Source of the DNA: an uncultured Gammaproteobacteria bacterium
GTDB taxonomy: Bacteria > Pseudomonadota > Gammaproteobacteria > UBA4575
Reading direction: 5' to 3'
Length of the DNA: 54,532 nucleotides
Assembly (NCBI GenBank): GCA_905479295.1
Contig: CAJQLY010000033.1
Span: forward strand, 1-54,532
Part shown: one piece after another, positions 26,074 to 35,704 of the stretch
How the letters are laid out: each line of letters starts with the position of its first letter
Numbering within the stretch: position 1 is the first letter of the stretch
Notes under the pieces: generated by a model
Databases searched by the model: none
Seen by the model: only the letters and a program-made list of their open reading frames with translations
What the model was told of the DNA's origin: nothing
Translations under genes and position numbers: made by a program

Positions 26074-27297
26074 TTACTCGACTACGCGTTGAATCAATAC
26101 TTCAAGCTCGTGTTGACTATGCTGGCTGAAATCAACACTAACAGCTGCAGAGATTAAATCACCAGCTTGGCTTATAGCTTGACCGCTAGGAGAGATCCTT
26201 GCCAATACTTCAATCTGTTCAAAACTGCGGAGATTCATATTCGGCAACATAGAGGTCGCTTCCGTCAGCTCAACTTTAATTGGTAGAGCCGACAGCGGCA
26301 CACGAACTAATGACAATGGCATTTTAGGTCCATTCTTTGCGCGGGCATAAATAAATACGGTATCGCTGGCTTGATAATTTTTAGCCAGTCCTTGCGCAAC
26401 ACTCACCTGCACATCAAGTATACGAGGCAATACTGCTTGTTCTTTAGGTGCCACCTCTAAACCAGCTTTTTCTCGCGCATCATCAACAAACTTATTTAGC
26501 GAATCACGCACATCATTTCTATCCGCAGGCACCAGACTTAATAATGTCTGCCAATGCACTACCGCAGTTTGATAATCATCTACACTATAGGCGGCATAAC
26601 CAGCATACCAAAGCGCACGCTCATGCCTAGGATTAACCGCAAGTGCCTGCTCTAATAAAGCATTCTCAATAGTGCCAAAAACACCATCATTGGCAAACGA
26701 TGAGGTTTCTGCAAGCAAAACTAGTAGATCTGGATCAGAGTAATCACTTAATGCAGCTGCCTGTGAATAGGCTTCTACAGCCTTATCAAATTGCTGCATC
26801 ACGACATAGGACTGGCCTAGTATTTTCCAGCCATCCAGATCATCGGGCTGATCTTGCAAACGTTGCTCTAAATCAACTATCGATTGTTGAATAGTCTGCG
26901 CCTGCTGCGCTAATTTTTGTTGCTCATTATATTCATCGTTCGCAACGTAACTAGTGAATTGCTGATAAAGCAAGATAGCGGATAGTGGCAAGGCAATAGT
27001 CAGCAATATGACCATGCTTAGATTACTACGTTGTTGAGTCACACTAGAGCGCTGACTAACCGTTACATCAGAGAGCAAACTTCGTTGTAATTCTTGCTCA
27101 CTCTGTTGGTACTCAGAGGGGTCTAATAAACCCTGCTCAAGATCTGCTTGCAGCTCTTCTAATTTACTTTCATACAAGGCTTTATTTACCTGCATGCGTG
27201 AGACCTGCGCAGATGCCGTCTGTCGTATTAACGGCAGAATAATAAAACCTAAACCGATTAGGGTAATCGCGGCTGCAGCCAACCAGAACAATGTCAT
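26074..27297 (-). CDS. ccmI: Cytochrome c maturation protein CcmI
   Basis: A 407-residue apocytochrome chaperone for system I. The N-terminal helix LFWLAAAAITLIGLGFIILP is followed by a cytoplasmic loop (MQVNKALYESKLEELQADLE) and a second helix (LSMVILLTIALPLSAILLY, about residues 92-110). TPR repeats come next (DDLDGWKILGQSYVVMQQFD, DPDLLVLLAETSS, ERALWYAGYAAYSVDDYQTA), and then a beta-rich C-terminal domain with PLSLVRVPLSALP. CcmI holds the apocytochrome C-terminus for the CcmF/H ligase. It begins 3 bases after ccmH. Confidence 0.92.
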   Translation of the reverse strand: MTLFWLAAAAITLIGLGFIILPLIRQTASAQVSRMQVNKALYESKLEELQADLEQGLLDPSEYQQSEQELQRSLLSDVTVSQRSSVTQQRSNLSMVILLTIALPLSAILLYQQFTSYVANDEYNEQQKLAQQAQTIQQSIVDLEQRLQDQPDDLDGWKILGQSYVVMQQFDKAVEAYSQAAALSDYSDPDLLVLLAETSSFANDGVFGTIENALLEQALAVNPRHERALWYAGYAAYSVDDYQTAVVHWQTLLSLVPADRNDVRDSLNKFVDDAREKAGLEVAPKEQAVLPRILDVQVSVAQGLAKNYQASDTVFIYARAKNGPKMPLSLVRVPLSALPIKVELTEATSMLPNMNLRSFEQIEVLARISPSGQAISQAGDLISAAVSVDFSQHSQHELEVLIQRVVE

Positions 27298-27300
27298 CGT

Positions 27301-27750
27301 TTAATCATCTCTATCTTGTATTACAGCGTTTACATGTTTCTTTTCGGCCTCTGTTAGCATATTACTTTTAGCCGTCTTATTATTTGCTCGCACTACTTGT
27401 CGTATACCTATAAGACCACCAATCAAGAGTACAAAAGGTCCAAACCAAAGCAACCAGGTTCGTGGTTTAACAGGTGGGTTATATAAAACAAAATCACCAT
27501 AGCGATCAGACATGAAAGTAAATATTTGCTGATCACTCAGCCCCTCTTCCAACATTCGTTTGACCTCCAGTCTGAGGTCATCGGCCAAACCAGAACCAGA
27601 GTCTGCTAATGTCTGATTTTGGCACACCAAACAACGCAGTTCATGTAGCAGATTGTTATAGCGTCCTTGATATTCAGGCTCCACGCTGATGATCTGTGCT
27701 TGTGCAACTCCGATCCATAAGCTGAGCAATAAGATTAAAGTGCGTATCAT
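27301..27750 (-). CDS. ccmH: Cytochrome c maturation protein CcmH (CycL-type)
   Basis: A 149-residue membrane-anchored thioredox protein. Signal peptide MIRTLILLLSLWIGVAQAQ; the conserved LRCLVCQNQTLADSGSGLA carries C40 and C43 (L-R-C-x-x-C), then a helical bundle (RLEVKRMLEEGLSDQQIF) and one C-terminal membrane helix (LLWFGPFVLLIGGLIGIRQVV). It is the short form lacking a fused TPR domain, which fits the separate ccmI. It reduces apocytochrome heme-binding cysteines. It overlaps ccmG by four bases. Confidence 0.95.
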   Translation of the reverse strand: MIRTLILLLSLWIGVAQAQIISVEPEYQGRYNNLLHELRCLVCQNQTLADSGSGLADDLRLEVKRMLEEGLSDQQIFTFMSDRYGDFVLYNPPVKPRTWLLWFGPFVLLIGGLIGIRQVVRANNKTAKSNMLTEAEKKHVNAVIQDRDD

Positions 27751-28280
27751 AGTGCTTCTCTACGTAAACGTTGAATGATTGGTAAAAAATCACGCTGCCA
27801 AATCTTATCGTTCATGACACCAACACGTTTATGCTGAATCACGCCCTGAGCATCGATTAAAAAAGTCTCTGGCGCACCATAGACACCAAAATCAATACCG
27901 ATACGCCCGTCATCATCAGCAATCGAGAAAGCGTAGGGATTACCTTCATCACGTAACCAAGCTCGTGCTTCGGCCTTATCAGTTTCTTTATAGTTCAGGC
28001 CATAGATTGGGATATCAGTCTTCGCTGCCAAAGCAACCAGATCTGGATGTTCATGCTTACAAGCAGGACACCAAGTAGCCCAGACATTGACTAAGGCAAT
28101 CTCACCAATTAAGTCTGCTTGGGTCACTGTTTTATCAGGATAAAATAGTGTCGACGCATTAAAACTAGGGATTGATTTTCCAACTAAGGGTGATGAGACT
28201 AATGATGGGTCTTTATACAATCCAACAAACAGAAAACCACTAATAACAAAGAAGAATAAAGCAGGAATTAGAGACTTCAT
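27747..28280 (-). CDS. ccmG: Thiol:disulfide oxidoreductase CcmG/DsbE
   Basis: A 177-residue thioredoxin-fold protein with an uncleaved N-terminal anchor (LIPALFFFVISGFLFVGLY). The active site C71-P-A-C74 lies in VNVWATWCPACKHEHPDL, the family-specific acidic loop in NYKETDKAEARAWL, and the cis-Pro in VYGAPETFLID. It passes electrons to CcmH and apocytochrome c. It overlaps ccmF and ccmH by four bases each. Confidence 0.95.
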   Translation of the reverse strand: MKSLIPALFFFVISGFLFVGLYKDPSLVSSPLVGKSIPSFNASTLFYPDKTVTQADLIGEIALVNVWATWCPACKHEHPDLVALAAKTDIPIYGLNYKETDKAEARAWLRDEGNPYAFSIADDDGRIGIDFGVYGAPETFLIDAQGVIQHKRVGVMNDKIWQRDFLPIIQRLRREAL

Positions 28281-30238
28281 GCGTTAGCAGACGTTGTCTT
28301 TCGTTGTGCGCGATAACGTCGATCTAATGCACCAACAATGCCACCTAAGGCCATCAATAAACAACCCATCCAGATCCATTGAATAAAGGGCCGGTAGTAC
28401 ACGCGTAGACCCCATTCATCGCGTGTTACAGGTTCTCCCAGAGCGACATACAAATCAGCAAAAATACCGGTGTAAATGCTTGCCTCTGTCATTGCATTAC
28501 GCTGGACGTTATAAATACGCTTTTCAGGTAATAATGTTGTTAGCAGTTGTTCACTTTTCTCTACCCGCACCGAGCCACGCATAGCGTCATAGTTAGGGCC
28601 TTTCACTGGGCCTACTCCTTCCAAAATAAAGTCATAACCTGAAACGCTAACCTTCTCACCTACTTTGACTGCTTGTTCTACTTGATCACTAAAAGAGCTA
28701 GTGAAGACTACGCCGATAATAAAAATACCCATACCAAAGTGAGCCAAGAGCATGCCATACATAGCCTTAGGCACCTTGGCATAAGCCTTTAACAATGGTG
28801 TTTGCGCATCCCGTTTATTGACCAAACGTACAACGGCATAGACCGAACTTAGAATCACCCAGGCTGCTGCTGCAATACCGATGCCAGTCATCACTGTATT
28901 GTTACCGTAGATAGCTAGCGGCAACACCAGCCCAACAACGATTGCTAAGATTGCTAGTACTTTAAGTCGATTAAGTAACTCACCTAGCTTCTCACGCCGC
29001 CATTTAGCCACTGGCCCTAGAGCCATCATGAAGATTAATGGCAACATCAGTGGCACAAAAACTGCTTCAAAATAAGGCGCACCTACTGACGATTTTGGCA
29101 TGCCCAAGGCATCTTCAAACAAGGGATACAAGGTCCCGATTAAAATAGTCAACATGGCCACGATCAAGAGCACATTATTCACTAGCAACATGGTTTCTTT
29201 TGAGACAATCTCATATTGACTCGTTGAAGAAAAACGCATCGCCCGCCAGGCATAGAGTGTTAGTGAACCTCCCACGACCAGCGCAAGGAAGCCTAAGATA
29301 TAAACACCACGTGCAGGGTCACTAGCAAATGAATGCACCGACACCAAGACACCAGACCGGACTAAAAAAGTACCTAGTAAGCTTAAGGAAAAAACAATAA
29401 TCGACAGTAGTATCGTCCAGCTCTTAAAGGTTGAACGTTTTTCTGTCACGGCTAGCGAATGGATTAATGCCGTACCCGCTAGCCAAGGCATGAATGATGC
29501 ATTCTCAACTGGATCCCAGAACCACCAACCGCCCCAACCTAATTCCTGATAGGCCCACCAGCTACCTAGTGCAATACCCACCGTTAAGAATACCCAAGCA
29601 AGATTAGCCCAAGGTCGTGACCAGCGTACCCAGGCTGAGTCCATCTCACCGCTTATTAAGGCAGCGATAGCAAAAGCAAAGGCGACAGAAAAGCCAACAT
29701 AGCCCATATAAAGCATCGGCGGGTGAATCACTAACCCGGGGTCTTGTAGTAAAGGATTTAGGTCTTTCCCTTGTAATGCAGCTGGAAACAGGCGATCAAA
29801 TGGATTCGAAGTGGCCAGAGTAAATAATAGAAAGCCAATACTGATCATACCCATAACACTGAGCACACGAGCCAATAGATCTTGCGGCAAACTACGACTG
29901 AAAATAGCAACGGCAAAGCCCCAACCCGATAACGCTAATACCCAAAGCAATAAAGAACCTTCATGTGCGCCCCAGACGGCTGAAATTCGATAGTAAATGG
30001 GTAACTCAGTATTTGAGTTATTAGCGATATAAAGCACTGAGAAATCATTAACAACAAAGCTATAGGCTAAGCAGATGAAGGCCAGCAATAAAAATAGAAA
30101 TTGTCCGATAGCAGTACTACGTCCCACTGCCATCCAATTAGCGTTATTCGTACTGGCTCCAATCAATGGAATACTCGCCTGCGCAATCGCCAAGCAAAGC
30201 GCCATAACCAAGGCAAAATGGCCAATCTCTGGAATCAT
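28277..30238 (-). CDS. ccmF: Cytochrome c heme lyase subunit CcmF
   Basis: A 653-residue polytopic membrane protein, the usual size, that ligates heme to apocytochrome c with CcmH and CcmI. The WWD heme-handling domain is in LGWGGWWFWDPVENASFMPWL (about residues 235-255). Other family stretches are YRISAVWGAHEGSLLLWVLAL (about 83-103), LNPLLQDPGLVIHPPMLYMGYVG (about 159-181) and HSFASDPARGVYIL. It lies 2 bases after ccmE and overlaps ccmG by four. Confidence 0.96.
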   Translation of the reverse strand: MIPEIGHFALVMALCLAIAQASIPLIGASTNNANWMAVGRSTAIGQFLFLLLAFICLAYSFVVNDFSVLYIANNSNTELPIYYRISAVWGAHEGSLLLWVLALSGWGFAVAIFSRSLPQDLLARVLSVMGMISIGFLLFTLATSNPFDRLFPAALQGKDLNPLLQDPGLVIHPPMLYMGYVGFSVAFAFAIAALISGEMDSAWVRWSRPWANLAWVFLTVGIALGSWWAYQELGWGGWWFWDPVENASFMPWLAGTALIHSLAVTEKRSTFKSWTILLSIIVFSLSLLGTFLVRSGVLVSVHSFASDPARGVYILGFLALVVGGSLTLYAWRAMRFSSTSQYEIVSKETMLLVNNVLLIVAMLTILIGTLYPLFEDALGMPKSSVGAPYFEAVFVPLMLPLIFMMALGPVAKWRREKLGELLNRLKVLAILAIVVGLVLPLAIYGNNTVMTGIGIAAAAWVILSSVYAVVRLVNKRDAQTPLLKAYAKVPKAMYGMLLAHFGMGIFIIGVVFTSSFSDQVEQAVKVGEKVSVSGYDFILEGVGPVKGPNYDAMRGSVRVEKSEQLLTTLLPEKRIYNVQRNAMTEASIYTGIFADLYVALGEPVTRDEWGLRVYYRPFIQWIWMGCLLMALGGIVGALDRRYRAQRKTTSANA

Positions 30239-30240
30239 GT

Positions 30241-30705
30241 TTATTCTACTGTTGTCTTAGGGATAGATACTGGGTGTTCGCCGCCTGCGGCCTTCAATGC
30301 CTCAGCAACTTCTGGTGGCATATAGTTTTCATCATGTTTTGCTAACACTTCTTGAGCGACAAATAGACCGCTTGCATTGAGTTTACCCTGCGCAACAATC
30401 CCTTGACCCTCACGAAATAAATCAGGTAGCAAACCGGTATATTCCACCTGCACTTGACCTTGCATATCAGTTAGAGAGAACTGTGTGGTAATACCGTCAG
30501 GCATACGCACAACACTACCCTCCACTACTAAACCACCGAGACGAAATAACTGATCTTCAGTTACCTCAGCCTCACTCAGTTGGGATGGGCTGTAAAAATA
30601 GAGTAGATTTTTTTGGAATGCGAATAAGGCCAAGGCGGTCGCTGCGGCAAAGCCACTGATCAAAACAATCACAAAAATCATTCGTTGCTTACGTTTAGTC
30701 GCCAT
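30241..30705 (-). CDS. ccmE: Heme chaperone CcmE
   Basis: A 154-residue periplasmic heme carrier anchored by an N-terminal helix (MIFVIVLISGFAAATALALFAF, residues 9-30). The OB-fold domain ends with VLAKHDENYMPPEV, where H124 is the histidine that binds heme covalently and the nearby Tyr (Y128) is conserved. It starts 3 bases after the ccmD stop. Confidence 0.96.
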   Translation of the reverse strand: MATKRKQRMIFVIVLISGFAAATALALFAFQKNLLYFYSPSQLSEAEVTEDQLFRLGGLVVEGSVVRMPDGITTQFSLTDMQGQVQVEYTGLLPDLFREGQGIVAQGKLNASGLFVAQEVLAKHDENYMPPEVAEALKAAGGEHPVSIPKTTVE

Positions 30706-30708
30706 TAG

Positions 30709-30861
30709 TTAGTCCTCTTCACTTAACTCTTGTATCTGTTGCAAAATTTGTTTACGACGCATTGTCGCGAAAACTAGGTTTGCAAGTAATACCCCAGCAG
30801 TGAGCCCATAAGAACCCCAAACGTAGAAGGCATAGCCACCCATATGGAAGAATTCACTCAT
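30709..30861 (-). CDS. ccmD: Heme exporter protein CcmD
   Basis: A 50-residue single-pass protein between ccmC and ccmE. It begins MSEFFHMGGYAFYVWGSYGL, which contains the CcmD pattern F.MGGYA.YVW.SYG, continues with the helix TAGVLLANLVFATM, and ends with a basic then acidic tail (RRKQILQQIQELSEED). CcmD stabilises the CcmABC complex that loads heme on CcmE. Its ATG overlaps the ccmC stop by four bases and its stop is 3 bases before ccmE. Confidence 0.93.
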   Translation of the reverse strand: MSEFFHMGGYAFYVWGSYGLTAGVLLANLVFATMRRKQILQQIQELSEED

Positions 30862-31598
30862 ACCGCCTCCTTCAACAGAGCTTTAACCCAACTGGTATTA
30901 CGTTCTCGTAATAACAACTCAGTACGTGCACGTTTAAATAGTACTGCGAAAAAATAAGCTTTAAAGGCTAAAGCCATTACCAATAATGGTATCAACATAC
31001 TCGGATGTGCCGATGGCGAGTCAAATTTACTGACTGTTGGCCCTTGATGTAAGGTGTTCCACCACTCTACTGAGTAATGAATAATCGGAATATTAACAAT
31101 CCCGACTAAGGTCAAGATAGCGGCAGCCCTAGCACCTGCACGCTCATCATCAAAAGCGCCAGAAAGAGCAATCACACCAAAATAGAGGAATAGTAAAACC
31201 AGCTCTGAGGTTAAGCGTGCATCCCAGACCCAATAGGCACCCCACATTGGCTTGCCCCATAGCATGCCTGTGATTAGTGCTAATGCCGTAAACGAGGCAC
31301 CAATAACTGCACATTGTGCGATCATAATTTCAGCGACTTTAATGCGCCAAATCAAAGTAACTATGGCAGCAGATGCCATCACCATGTAGCCAAACATCGA
31401 TAGCCAGGCAGCCGGTACGTGCACATACATAATGCGTACAGTCTCACCCTGTTGATAATCGGCAGGAGAATTCAGTAAGGAATAGTAGAGCCCGACACTC
31501 ATCAATAATGCTGCAATAATACTCGCCCATTTCTGCCAACTGGCAGACCATGAATAAAAGTATTGAGGTGAGGCGTATTTATGTAAAAAGGTAAACAT
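30858..31598 (-). CDS. ccmC: Heme exporter protein CcmC
   Basis: A 246-residue membrane protein with six predicted helices and the WWD-type motif in MLWGKPMWGAYWVWDARLTSE (about residues 121-141), plus conserved histidines in RIMYVHVPAAWLSMFGY and SVEWWNTLHQG. It handles heme for CcmE together with CcmA, CcmB and CcmD. I start at the ATG at 31598, one base after the ccmB stop (TAAGATG). The upstream extension to 31637 lies inside ccmB and has no family match. Confidence 0.94.
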   Translation of the reverse strand: MFTFLHKYASPQYFYSWSASWQKWASIIAALLMSVGLYYSLLNSPADYQQGETVRIMYVHVPAAWLSMFGYMVMASAAIVTLIWRIKVAEIMIAQCAVIGASFTALALITGMLWGKPMWGAYWVWDARLTSELVLLFLYFGVIALSGAFDDERAGARAAAILTLVGIVNIPIIHYSVEWWNTLHQGPTVSKFDSPSAHPSMLIPLLVMALAFKAYFFAVLFKRARTELLLRERNTSWVKALLKEAV

Positions 31599-31599
31599 C

Positions 31600-32265
31600 T
31601 TAGTTATATGAAACTCGTAAGGCCGCCACAACAGCAAACGGCACTAATAAGATTGAAACAATTAAGAACGCTGCAAGTAACGCATAATAACCGCTGACCG
31701 GTTGATTTACAGCTGCAGCATTAATTGCCATGGTGGAAAAAATCAGTACAGGGACATAGAAAGGTAACGTTAGTAAAGAAGATAAAACGCCACCGCCCCT
31801 AAGACTCAAGGTTAATGCCACTCCAACCGCACCTAACAGACTCAAAATGGGCGTGCTAATTAATAGTGTGATAATCAGACTAGGCAGTGCTTGCGGCGGT
31901 AAAAACAACAAAAATGACATCAGCGGCGCAATAATAACCAAGGGTAGACCGATACTGACCCAGTGAGCGGCGATCTTTGCGCTAATCAAGACCACTTTAG
32001 AACCCGGCATCAGTAGCAATTGCTCAAGTGAGCCATCACCGTAGTCAGAGCGAAACATACTATCCATTGATATCAGCGCGGCCAGCAAGGCGGTAACCCA
32101 GATGACACCTGCTGACAATTCGGCGAGAAAGGCGTGATCGGGTGTTACCCCTAGTGGGAACATACTCACGACCATAATGAAAAAGACTAATGGGTTAGCT
32201 AATTCACGTCGACGCCTTATTGCCAATAGCATATCTCGTTTAAATATGAATAAAAACAGACGCAT
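31600..32265 (-). CDS. ccmB: Heme exporter protein CcmB
   Basis: A 221-residue ABC permease with six hydrophobic segments. Family stretches: FKRDMLLAIRRRRELANPLVFF (about residues 8-29), SAGVIWVTALLAALISMDSMF (about 51-71), FRSDYGDGSLEQLLLMPGS, and SLRGGGVLSSLLTLPFYVPVLIFST near the end. It pairs with the CcmA ATPase, 3 bases upstream, in the step that frees holo-CcmE. Confidence 0.95.
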   Translation of the reverse strand: MRLFLFIFKRDMLLAIRRRRELANPLVFFIMVVSMFPLGVTPDHAFLAELSAGVIWVTALLAALISMDSMFRSDYGDGSLEQLLLMPGSKVVLISAKIAAHWVSIGLPLVIIAPLMSFLLFLPPQALPSLIITLLISTPILSLLGAVGVALTLSLRGGGVLSSLLTLPFYVPVLIFSTMAINAAAVNQPVSGYYALLAAFLIVSILLVPFAVVAALRVSYN

Positions 32266-32268
32266 AGT

Positions 32269-32916
32269 CTACTTTTTTGCACTCTCGTTAAGGTCTAAAT
32301 TTCGAATTGTTGCTGTTCCCAAATCCAACCCTCTATGGGTTGTTAGAATTAACATGCCACCATTCGCTAAGTGTGCTTGTAAGCACGCTTCGATGGCTGC
32401 AATGAAATCGACATCTAACGCAGTCAATGGTTCATCGAGTACCCATAACGGCTGTTCAGACAAAAACAATCGTGCCAGAGCGACGCGACGCTGCTGTCCT
32501 GCTGATAAGCGCGAACAAATAACACCTAACCGTTGGCGTAGCCCTACCTTTTCCGCTAATTCAACCATTGAGTCTGCTCCACAGCCATTTAGCGCATAAT
32601 GTAAGCGCAAATTTTCACGCACACTTAACTCTTGTTTAATCGCTGACTGATGCCCAATAAATAACAGTTCTCGCTGATAGGCCTGTTCATCTGCCGTAAT
32701 CGGGCGGCCATTCCAGAGTACGTCACCCTCTATGGCCGTCGTTAGACCTGTAATAATCCTTAATAAGCTGGTTTTACCGCTACCATTAGCCCCCTGTACT
32801 AATAAGGCCTCACCCGCATGTAATTCAAAGGTAAGATTATCAAATAGCACACGGCCACCACGCTCACATTGAAGTGCGGTGCTTTGCAAGGAATTGGATT
32901 TTTTGTACTTGGACAT
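32269..32916 (-). CDS. ccmA: Cytochrome c biogenesis ATP-binding protein CcmA
   Basis: A 215-residue ABC ATPase. It starts MSKYKKSNSLQSTALQCERG, with Walker A GANGSGKT (in LVQGANGSGKTSLLRIITGL), signature LSAGQQRRVALARLFLSE, Walker B LWVLDEPLTALD and H-loop TTHRG. I chose the ATG at 32916; the frame runs on to a TTG at 32946 that adds residues unlike the family. It heads the ccmABCDEFGHI operon, which is tightly packed and complete. The 114-base upstream gap is shared with the divergent tetraheme cytochrome gene. Confidence 0.94.
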   Translation of the reverse strand: MSKYKKSNSLQSTALQCERGGRVLFDNLTFELHAGEALLVQGANGSGKTSLLRIITGLTTAIEGDVLWNGRPITADEQAYQRELLFIGHQSAIKQELSVRENLRLHYALNGCGADSMVELAEKVGLRQRLGVICSRLSAGQQRRVALARLFLSEQPLWVLDEPLTALDVDFIAAIEACLQAHLANGGMLILTTHRGLDLGTATIRNLDLNESAKK

Positions 32917-33060
32917 TAGTGCTTTAATGCATACACAGTGAATCAAGCCCTGTATGCTTCTTGTTCACATTCTTGAGATCACGAATTCACGTTGTTACGC
33001 GGCCTAATATTACATAAAATGCTGCTTAATTATTCGCATACTAGCACCCAATAAAAAATA

Positions 33061-33618
33061 ATGTCAGATCGCAAAAAATACACTTTAGGTTTCATCTCCG
33101 TTTTCGGTTTCATTGCCCTTATCGGCCTTGGCTTCTTTTCTGCCCTCGGCTCCTCGGTGGCACTAGAAAAAACTAATACGGTCGAATTTTGTACTTCCTG
33201 CCACTCGATGCAATGGGTCAAAGAAGAATGGATGGAGTCGGTTCACTATAAGAATGCCTCCGGCGTCCGCGCTGGCTGCCCAGACTGTCACGTCCCTCAC
33301 TCCTTGGGGCCTAAGTTGATGGCCAAGGTGATGGCAGCAAAAGATGTCTGGGGCGAGATCATGGGCACCATCGATACCGAAGAAAAATTTGAAGCGCATC
33401 GCTGGGAAATGGCTAATCGTGTCTGGGCGACAATGGAAGCCACTGATTCACGTGAATGTCGCAGCTGTCACAGCTTTGACGCGATGGATCCAAGTGAGCA
33501 AGAAAAAACATCTCGCAAGAAGCATAGGAAGGCACAAAAACGTGGACAGACCTGTATCGAATGTCACAAAGGTGTCGCCCATGAAGAACCAACTGAGCCC
33601 GATACGGATGAAGGCTAA
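33061..33618 (+). CDS. NapC/NirT-family membrane-anchored tetraheme cytochrome c
   Basis: A 185-residue cytochrome with an N-terminal membrane anchor (FISVFGFIALIGLGFFSALG, residues 11-30) and four CXXCH heme sites: C44-C47-H48, C73-C76-H77, C133-C136-H137 and C165-C168-H169. Members of this family (PF03264) take electrons from quinol, or exchange them with it, and pass them to periplasmic partners. Nitrate, nitrite, TMAO and hydroxylamine systems are known users. No reductase gene is adjacent; instead it lies 130 bases upstream of fccAB and divergent from ccm. It could link FccAB to the quinone pool (inference). The start ATG has no clear ribosome site. Confidence 0.9.
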   Translation: MSDRKKYTLGFISVFGFIALIGLGFFSALGSSVALEKTNTVEFCTSCHSMQWVKEEWMESVHYKNASGVRAGCPDCHVPHSLGPKLMAKVMAAKDVWGEIMGTIDTEEKFEAHRWEMANRVWATMEATDSRECRSCHSFDAMDPSEQEKTSRKKHRKAQKRGQTCIECHKGVAHEEPTEPDTDEG

Positions 33619-33676
33619 TCAGTTTTAAAAAATCAATGCTACCTAAGCCCAATATGCTTATAGAGAATCATTGAAT

Positions 33677-33708
33677 TAGGCGCCTAAAGTGTTGCTCATA
33701 GGCGCCTA
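33677..33708. promoter_or_regulatory. Two copies of the palindrome TAGGCGCCTA, 22 bp apart (candidate operator)
   Basis: Perfect 10-bp palindromes TAGGCGCCTA occupy 33677-33686 and 33699-33708. Their centres are 22 bp apart, about two DNA turns. The second lies inside the spacer of the putative fccA promoter and the first just upstream of its -35. In RNA the two copies could pair as a 10-bp hairpin, but there is no U-run for termination. Confidence 0.55.
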
Positions 33709-33721
33709 TCTACAGCATACT
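33692..33721 (+). promoter_or_regulatory. Candidate sigma-70-type promoter of fccAB
   Basis: The -35-like TTGCTC (33692-33697) and -10-like CATACT (33716-33721) are separated by 18 bp that contain the second TAGGCGCCTA palindrome. Transcription would start near 33728, giving a leader of about 20 bases that contains the ribosome site GAGGAG (33735-33740). Confidence 0.45.
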
Positions 33722-33748
33722 ACTGTCTTAATCTGAGGAGTTCTAATA

Positions 33749-34405
33749 ATGAGAATAAAAGCTACTGCAACGGCCCTGCTTTGCATGGCCTCGCTGATGG
33801 GTACGACCGCTAGCGCGGATCCTGCTCGCCAAGCAATGTTGGTGAATACCTGTGTTGCCTGCCATGGTGAGGCTGGAAATAGTGTTGGCCCAGCTATCCC
33901 AACCCTTGCTGGTCTATCACCTAATTATTTAATGGGTGCGATGTTGGCCTATAAATATCCTGATGCTGACGAATTAGAAGCTGTTATAGATGCTGACCCA
34001 GCATTCGAGGATGTCGAAGCATTCAACCGTTATGGCACGATCATGAATCGCCTTGCTAGCGGCTACACAGAAGAAGAAATTAAAATGATCGCTGCTTACT
34101 TCAGTGACCAAGAAATGCAGCGAGCAACGCAAGACTTTGATAGCGCACAAGCCAAAAAAGGTAAGAAACTTCATACCAAGTACTGTGAAAAGTGCCATGA
34201 AGATGAAGGCCGTGTAGCTGATGATGATACCGGTGTACTCGCAGGCCAATGGGCACCTTACTTCCTATATAGCATGGCAGACTTCAACAACGGCGATCGT
34301 GATATGCCTAAAAAAATGAAGATCAAGCTTAAGGAAATCCAAGACAGTGTAGGTCACGCTGGCTTTGAACAACTTGCGCATTACTACGCAAGTATCACTG
34401 ACTAG
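33749..34405 (+). CDS. fccA: Diheme cytochrome c subunit of flavocytochrome c sulfide dehydrogenase
   Basis: A 218-residue periplasmic cytochrome with a signal peptide (MRIKATATALLCMASLMG, cleavage after ASA at about 23). It has two class I heme domains: C35-VA-C38-H39 with a likely Met ligand at M99 (TIMNRLASGYTEEEI), and C146-EK-C149-H150 with a likely Met in DMPKKMKIKLKEI. The two-domain c4-like form is what FccA of purple sulfur bacteria has. It is the partner of fccB, 15 bases downstream. GAGGAG precedes the ATG by eight bases. Confidence 0.9.
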   Translation: MRIKATATALLCMASLMGTTASADPARQAMLVNTCVACHGEAGNSVGPAIPTLAGLSPNYLMGAMLAYKYPDADELEAVIDADPAFEDVEAFNRYGTIMNRLASGYTEEEIKMIAAYFSDQEMQRATQDFDSAQAKKGKKLHTKYCEKCHEDEGRVADDDTGVLAGQWAPYFLYSMADFNNGDRDMPKKMKIKLKEIQDSVGHAGFEQLAHYYASITD

Positions 34406-34420
34406 TCGAGGACACAAACA

Positions 34421-35704
34421 ATGAAAAAATTAAATCGTAGAGATTTTATTAAATACGGTAGTGGCACAGTAGCTGCTGGAGCGGTCACTCTAGGTGCTCC
34501 TAATATTGCACTAGGCTCGACTAAAAAAGTTGTCGTTGTCGGTGGTGGTGCCGGTGGCGCGATTGCTGCCAAATATATCAAGAGAGCAGATAGCTCAATT
34601 GATGTGACGCTGATCGAAACCAATAAAGAATATTACACCTGCTTCATGAGCAATGAAGTACTAGGTGGTGACCGAGACATTAGTACCATTCGTCATGGTT
34701 ATGAGGGCTTGAAGAAACATGGCATTAATGTAGTACATGCTAAGGCTACTGGCGTTGATCATGACAGTAAGAAAGTTGTTACCGATGCCGGTGATAGCTT
34801 TGGCTATGATCGCCTTGTACTTTCACCAGGTGTTTCTCTTAAGTACGGTGTAATCGAGGGTTATGACGAAGCTGCTGCTGAAGCCATGCCACATGCTTGG
34901 AAAGCAGGCCCACAGACTGGCTTACTACGTAAGCAACTGGTTGAAATGAAAGATGGTGGCACAGTCATTATCGCACCTCCAGGCAACCCATTCCGCTGTC
35001 CTCCAGGACCTTATGAGCGTGCCTGCCAAATTGCGCACTATCTCAAGCATAACAAGCCCAAGTCGAAGATTTTAGTCATCGATGCAAAAGACAAGTTTTC
35101 CAAGCAAGGCTTATTTATGCAAGGCTGGAAAGCATGTTATGACGGCATGATTGATTGGGTACCTGCAGCTGATACCGGTGGTGGTGTAACCTCAGTTAAT
35201 GCGGCTGAAATGACAGTCTCAACCGACTTTGATGATATTCAAGGTGATGTAATCAATATTATCCCACCTCAACATGCTGGCCATATCGCACATGTTGCTG
35301 GTGTAACTGATGACTCTGGTTGGTGCCCTGTTAATCTAGGTACTTTTGAATCTAAGATTCATGCCGGTGTTTATGTTATTGGTGATGCTAGTGCAGCAAA
35401 AGGCATGCCTAAGTCAGGTTATGCAGCAAACTCACAGGGTAAAGTATGTGCTACTGCGATCGTTGCTTCATTAAATGATATTGAGATGACTGCTCCTTCA
35501 TATGTTAATACTTGCTATAGCTTGATTGCACCTGATTATGGTATTTCAGTCGCAGCGGTTTACCGTTTAGCTGAAGATCATTCAAAGATTGCAAAGGTTG
35601 CTGGTGGTCTAACCCCTGGTGATGCGAGTAAGGAAGCGTTACAACGTGAAGTGCAATATGCCTACAGTTGGTACGATAATATCGTTGCCGATATGTTTAC
35701 CTAA
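34421..35704 (+). CDS. fccB: Sulfide dehydrogenase (flavocytochrome c) flavoprotein subunit
   Basis: A 427-residue FAD protein that oxidises sulfide in the periplasm. The Tat signal is [20 protein letters not shown], consistent with export of a folded flavoprotein. The FAD motif is [17 protein letters not shown] (about residues 37-53). Three key cysteines line up with characterised FccB: C74 (in [10 protein letters not shown]) for covalent FAD, and C193 ([12 protein letters not shown]) plus C365 ([14 protein letters not shown]) for the redox disulfide at the flavin. The match of both the covalent-FAD cysteine and the disulfide separates it from ordinary sulfide:quinone reductases. GAGGA lies eight bases before the ATG, and a strong terminator follows. 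Confidence 0.95.

Follow-up and report, generated by a model that had tools for sequence, protein, structure and literature searches.

Tandem palindromic operators of a dimeric repressor are known from ArgR, whose boxes lie about 21 bp apart. TTHA1953, a CsoR family protein of Thermus thermophilus, controls the sox genes through a palindromic operator, a gene for a flavocytochrome c sulfide dehydrogenase being among those induced (PMC10318464). SqrR, BigR and YgaV are ArsR-type persulfide-responsive repressors, which respond to sulfide and bind over the RNA polymerase site of the target promoter; their recognition site is reported as ATTC-N8-GAAT (PMC9774250). Apart from the Thermus sox system, our literature search returned no operator ascribed to fccAB, and among the papers searched the 10-mer TAGGCGCCTA was matched only in ones on a salamander virus or a mycoplasma plasmid. 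In the window (the whole stretch of 54,532 nucleotides analysed here) this 10-mer stands twice in front of fccAB.

The palindrome pair and the putative fccAB promoter

Both copies of TAGGCGCCTA were read exactly where the earlier note had placed them, letter for letter (Table 1). They are mirror-symmetric and identical, lie 41-72 bp 5' of fccA, and each forms the core of a 12-bp perfect palindrome. Their starts as well as their centres are 22 bp apart, which puts them on the same face of the helix, as had been claimed. This spacing is in helical phase in three species, i. e. the same dyad occurs twice at a fixed distance, as in a tandem operator.

Table 1. Features around the palindrome pair, in window coordinates
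Feature	Position	Strand	Remarks
NapC/NirT-type multihaem cytochrome c gene (napC)	33061..33618	+	Pfam Cytochrom_NNT 8e-68
Palindrome 1, TTAGGCGCCTAA	33676..33687	.	holds TAGGCGCCTA copy 1, 33677-33686; exact in sister G012; ATAGGCGCTTAA in sister G013
Putative -35 hexamer TTGCTC	33692..33697	+	weak, 3/6 sigma-70; TTGCTC in G012, TTGTTC in G013
Palindrome 2, ATAGGCGCCTAT	33698..33709	.	holds TAGGCGCCTA copy 2, 33699-33708; within putative promoter spacer; ATGGGCGCCTAT in G012, TTGAGCGCTTAT in G013
Alternative: one RNA hairpin, copy 1 with copy 2	33677..33708	+	predicted fold; 10-bp stem, 12-nt loop
Putative -10 hexamer CATACT	33716..33721	+	4/6 sigma-70; inside block ATCTACAGCATACTA
Probable ribosome-binding site GAGGAG of fccA	33736..33741	+	read from sequence
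fccA, dihaem cytochrome c subunit of flavocytochrome c sulfide dehydrogenase	33749..34405	+	two cytochrome c domains (Pfam)
fccB, flavoprotein subunit	34421..35704	+	FCSD_central and FCSD-flav_bind (Pfam)

The Pfam domains of the two downstream genes confirm their naming as fccAB. Directly 5' of fccA and on the same strand lies napC, in the window across a gap of 130 bp; at the family loci with a full fccA match (L003-L019), a gene of this type is the same-strand neighbour 89-167 nt 5' of fccA. Over a wider range, a NapC/NirT-type gene was present within the examined flank of fccB, up- or downstream, at 43 of 80 loci (L050-L129) from several lineages, which suggests that this cytochrome is a conserved electron-transfer partner of flavocytochrome c. 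Divergent from napC-fccAB, a full cytochrome c maturation cluster occupies 26074-32946 (ABC ATPase, CcmB, CcmC-like, CcmE, CcmF, redoxin, CcmH, CycH).

The hexamers proposed earlier as -35 and -10 are present, copy 2 being held in their 18-bp spacer and copy 1 lying 5' of the -35. That the site belongs to the fccAB promoter is a claim which stands in part. The block ATCTACAGCATACTA, which adjoins palindrome 2 downstream and likely holds the -10 region, is invariant in three species, and the CATACTAT block recurs in another genus (locus L008); against this, both hexamers match sigma-70 poorly. A sigma-70 consensus scan of the window did not list the TTGCTC/CATACT pair among its promoters. TATAAT boxes in the napC-fccA gap of a sister genus (L006, L009, L010, L011) fit an internal promoter for fccAB, and we regard it as plausible that the palindromes are placed over such a predicted promoter. 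In this sister genus (g5), the gap 5' of fccA carries another dyad around a TATAAT box, in its clearest form GTGCA-N11-TGCAC; four species retain it whole or in part (L006, L009, L010 and, partly, L011). Relative to the TAGGCGCCTA pair this dyad is a curiosity, not a homologue.

A possible interpretation, which we favour tentatively and to which we give not quite an even chance, is that the pair is a genus-specific cis-regulatory site over an internal fccAB promoter, namely the tandem operator of a dimeric repressor. Palindrome 1 would lie just 5' of the -35 and palindrome 2, two helical turns further on, between the -35 and the -10; a dimeric regulator would most likely bind both of them, and once bound it would block RNA polymerase at the fccAB promoter and thereby repress it. 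We infer that there is a promoter here, that some protein binds the site, and that it does so cooperatively and represses. The weak -35 and -10, the moderate constraint on the palindromes and the lack of the pair in other genera speak against this operator.

Conservation in relatives and the possibility of coincidence

The pair could also be mostly coincidence, i. e. a short conserved promoter block with two adjacent GC-rich palindromic words that have no function of their own and that became exactly identical through drift in this lineage. We consider this rather unlikely, and the following comparisons bear on it from both sides. The source assembly (G000; 1.15 Mb, 77% complete) was compared with two sister species of its genus (G012, G013) and with a family sample of 19 genomes; for this lineage the order equals the family.

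In G012 copy 1 is exact and copy 2 has one change (TGGGCGCCTA), and in G013 the copies read TAGGCGCTTA and TGAGCGCTTA. The two sisters retain both sites, at an unaltered spacing of 22 bp and at the same distance from CATACT, and GCGC, the core of either copy, is identical in all three species. That spacing and cores were kept while the distal part of the napC-fccA gap diverged among the sisters, with an indel, argues against coincidence. In an alignment of this gap no such pair is seen in the family's five other genera, which counts in favour of coincidence; when viral contigs were scanned for the conserved -10 block, no further members of the genus came up. Absence of the palindromes upstream of fccA in close relatives, which the earlier note had set against its own reading, was thus found at the level of genera but not among the sister species.

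Pairwise among the three species, 1/24, 6/24 and 5/24 positions of the two 12-mers differ. The 6/24 between window and G013 fits coincidence; still, the palindromes diverge less than the fourfold-degenerate sites of fccA and fccB, which differ at 0.19-0.45, and this does not. The block after copy 2 (alignment columns 97-110) shows 0-7% divergence. These figures indicate strong constraint on the -10 region and only moderate constraint on the palindromes. The sisters keep the dyads with some loss of exact symmetry, and in G013 pairs within each palindrome are broken. Pairing of the core after four changes is kept above chance, if weakly (P ~0.03), which speaks against coincidence. Three of the four G013 half-sites share the same change, GGC to AGC, as would be expected if one binding specificity governed both sites.

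Single 12-bp palindromes occur in the window at chance level (18 found, 15.0 expected from simulation). Nor do 10-bp inverted repeats with short loops stand out here: seven overlapping matches with loops of 3-25 nt were counted at four sites, against 1.5 in simulations with a maximum of 8. Identical palindrome pairs within 60 bp are rarer. None appeared in 30 simulated windows and one in a 12-Mb simulation, which corresponds to ~0.005 per window and ~0.1 per 1.15-Mb genome. Hence the pair is unusual locally, and the earlier claim that it is unlikely by chance holds at the level of the window, but after a whole-genome scan it is not astonishing, and the genome-wide figure is in keeping with coincidence. 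For a feature found by looking everywhere, the rarity of the identical pair is suggestive, not decisive.

The earlier note had also held that a random genome-wide spread would count against an operator, and here the picture is mixed. Beyond the pair, our own assembly has no further exact copy of TAGGCGCCTA in its 77% complete sequence, and its three one-mismatch 12-mers all lie in genes. In the sisters and the family, the exact copies examined lie mostly within genes; three (L130, L131, L143) have no long ORF around them. Elsewhere in the family the exact motif looks random, again as coincidence would have it. With the relaxed consensus WTRRGCGCYYAW, forward matches exceeded those of the reversed-pattern control (8/11/12 vs 2/6/0) and were mostly coding; the intergenic ones stand before unrelated genes where these could be identified (guaA-like by its start at L148), with other ORFs at L164 and L167.

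An RNA hairpin as an alternative

Since each copy is palindromic, copy 1 can also pair with copy 2, and a 10-12-bp hairpin is predicted in all three species, which did not figure in the earlier interpretation. The predicted fold of 33670-33715 has -17.9 kcal/mol (z -3.85). Located between napC and fccA in a read-through mRNA, such a stem-loop would shield or process the fccAB part of a napC-fccA-fccB transcript, and the palindromes would then be a by-product of self-complementary arms. On balance we judge this unlikely. It agrees with the position of napC, which in the family immediately precedes fccA on the same strand, and with a stem of 10/10 pairs in the three species (G-U allowed), which includes one compensatory C-G to U-A change and extends to 12/12 pairs in G013. 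If the window sequence is taken as the starting point, 12/12 pairs seldom arise by random change (P ~0.0003), and the self-symmetry of the G013 copies is at the level of random decay (P 0.22-0.33). However, this asymmetry comes from two flanking positions and presupposes that the window is ancestral; in the reverse direction, the window palindromes become the unlikely outcome (P < 0.001). As the verdict flips with the assumed ancestor, the simulation favouring the hairpin was not used as proof.

The 10-bp core fits both models indistinguishably, and the counts of compensatory changes under the palindrome and the hairpin model, taken from three sequences only, are equal. As to the flanking bases, those of the window and G012 favour palindromes, those of G013 the hairpin. 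Against a hairpin, an fccA start near 33728 would leave it outside the fccA transcript; none is found at the napC-fccA gap in other genera, where z-scores are near zero in most relatives; and there is no T-run that would make it a terminator. Rfam returned only two chance matches, far below the gathering scores and neither of them over the palindromes. The reading at the DNA level, as an operator, is preferred for two reasons: a probable internal promoter coincides with the site, and the same G-to-A type of change recurs in three of the four G013 half-sites.

It is very improbable that the site is an intrinsic terminator, relict or bidirectional, for the cytochrome gene upstream, since neither strand has a T-run after the stem in the window or the sisters and a terminator scan gave no match there, even though the only other clearly intergenic exact copy examined in a sister genome (G012 contig 60, L160:1660) lies in the palindromic arms of AGGCGCCTATATATAGGCGCCTTTTTT, a hairpin of textbook terminator shape. 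Of the perfect hairpins found in the window, the longest is a terminator-like one at 935-964, a 13-bp inverted repeat flanked by an A-run and a T-run.

Regulon, candidate binders and comparison with known systems

If the pair is an operator, the question arises which promoters share it. The earlier note had proposed to look for TAGGCGCCTA in fcc, sqr or sox promoters genome-wide. Pattern searches in our own genome and in relatives found neither the exact nor the relaxed motif in promoters of other sulfur genes, as far as the genes could be identified, so that a regulon finds no support in an assembly that lacks a fifth of the genome. As no other promoter of the genus has the site, there is also no autoregulated regulator gene that would point to the binder, and this counts against the operator reading. 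For a single-target regulator further operator sites are not obligatory. It appears improbable that a novel regulator, private to the genus and acting at this one promoter only, switches fccAB on sulfide via two TAGGCGCCTA-type operators.

Two known families were considered as binders. Proteins of the CsoR family (PF02583) were found in none of the three genus genomes, whose assemblies are 77-91% complete, with control searches positive; an operator of CsoR/CstR type was rejected on this ground and because the operator sequence differs. ArsR-type helix-turn-helix matches are present in both sisters, and none was detected in our own incomplete assembly. ATTC-N8-GAAT is absent from both palindromes and from the sequence between them, and a binder of ArsR/SqrR/BigR type was rejected for these two reasons.

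The TAGGCGCCTA pair is real and slightly unusual, and it is most likely a small promoter element at the level of the genus, with a putative function; palindromic operators that overlie promoters are an ordinary kind of element. Should the element be real, the DNA could serve as a bait for the flavocytochrome c sulfide dehydrogenase regulator of uncultured sulfur-oxidising Gammaproteobacteria.

With TTHA1953 the fccAB site has in common that it is palindromic and lies at sulfur-oxidation genes, but the TTHA1953 operator TACNNTACNNNNGTANNGTA is unlike TAGGCGCCTA (PMC10318464). The predicted site resembles that of SqrR, BigR and YgaV in overlapping the promoter, and differs from it in the recognition sequence. 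Tandem operators of the ArgR type are alike in their architecture, with a pair of palindromes that overlie a promoter at a distance of about two helical turns; their sequence is a different one.
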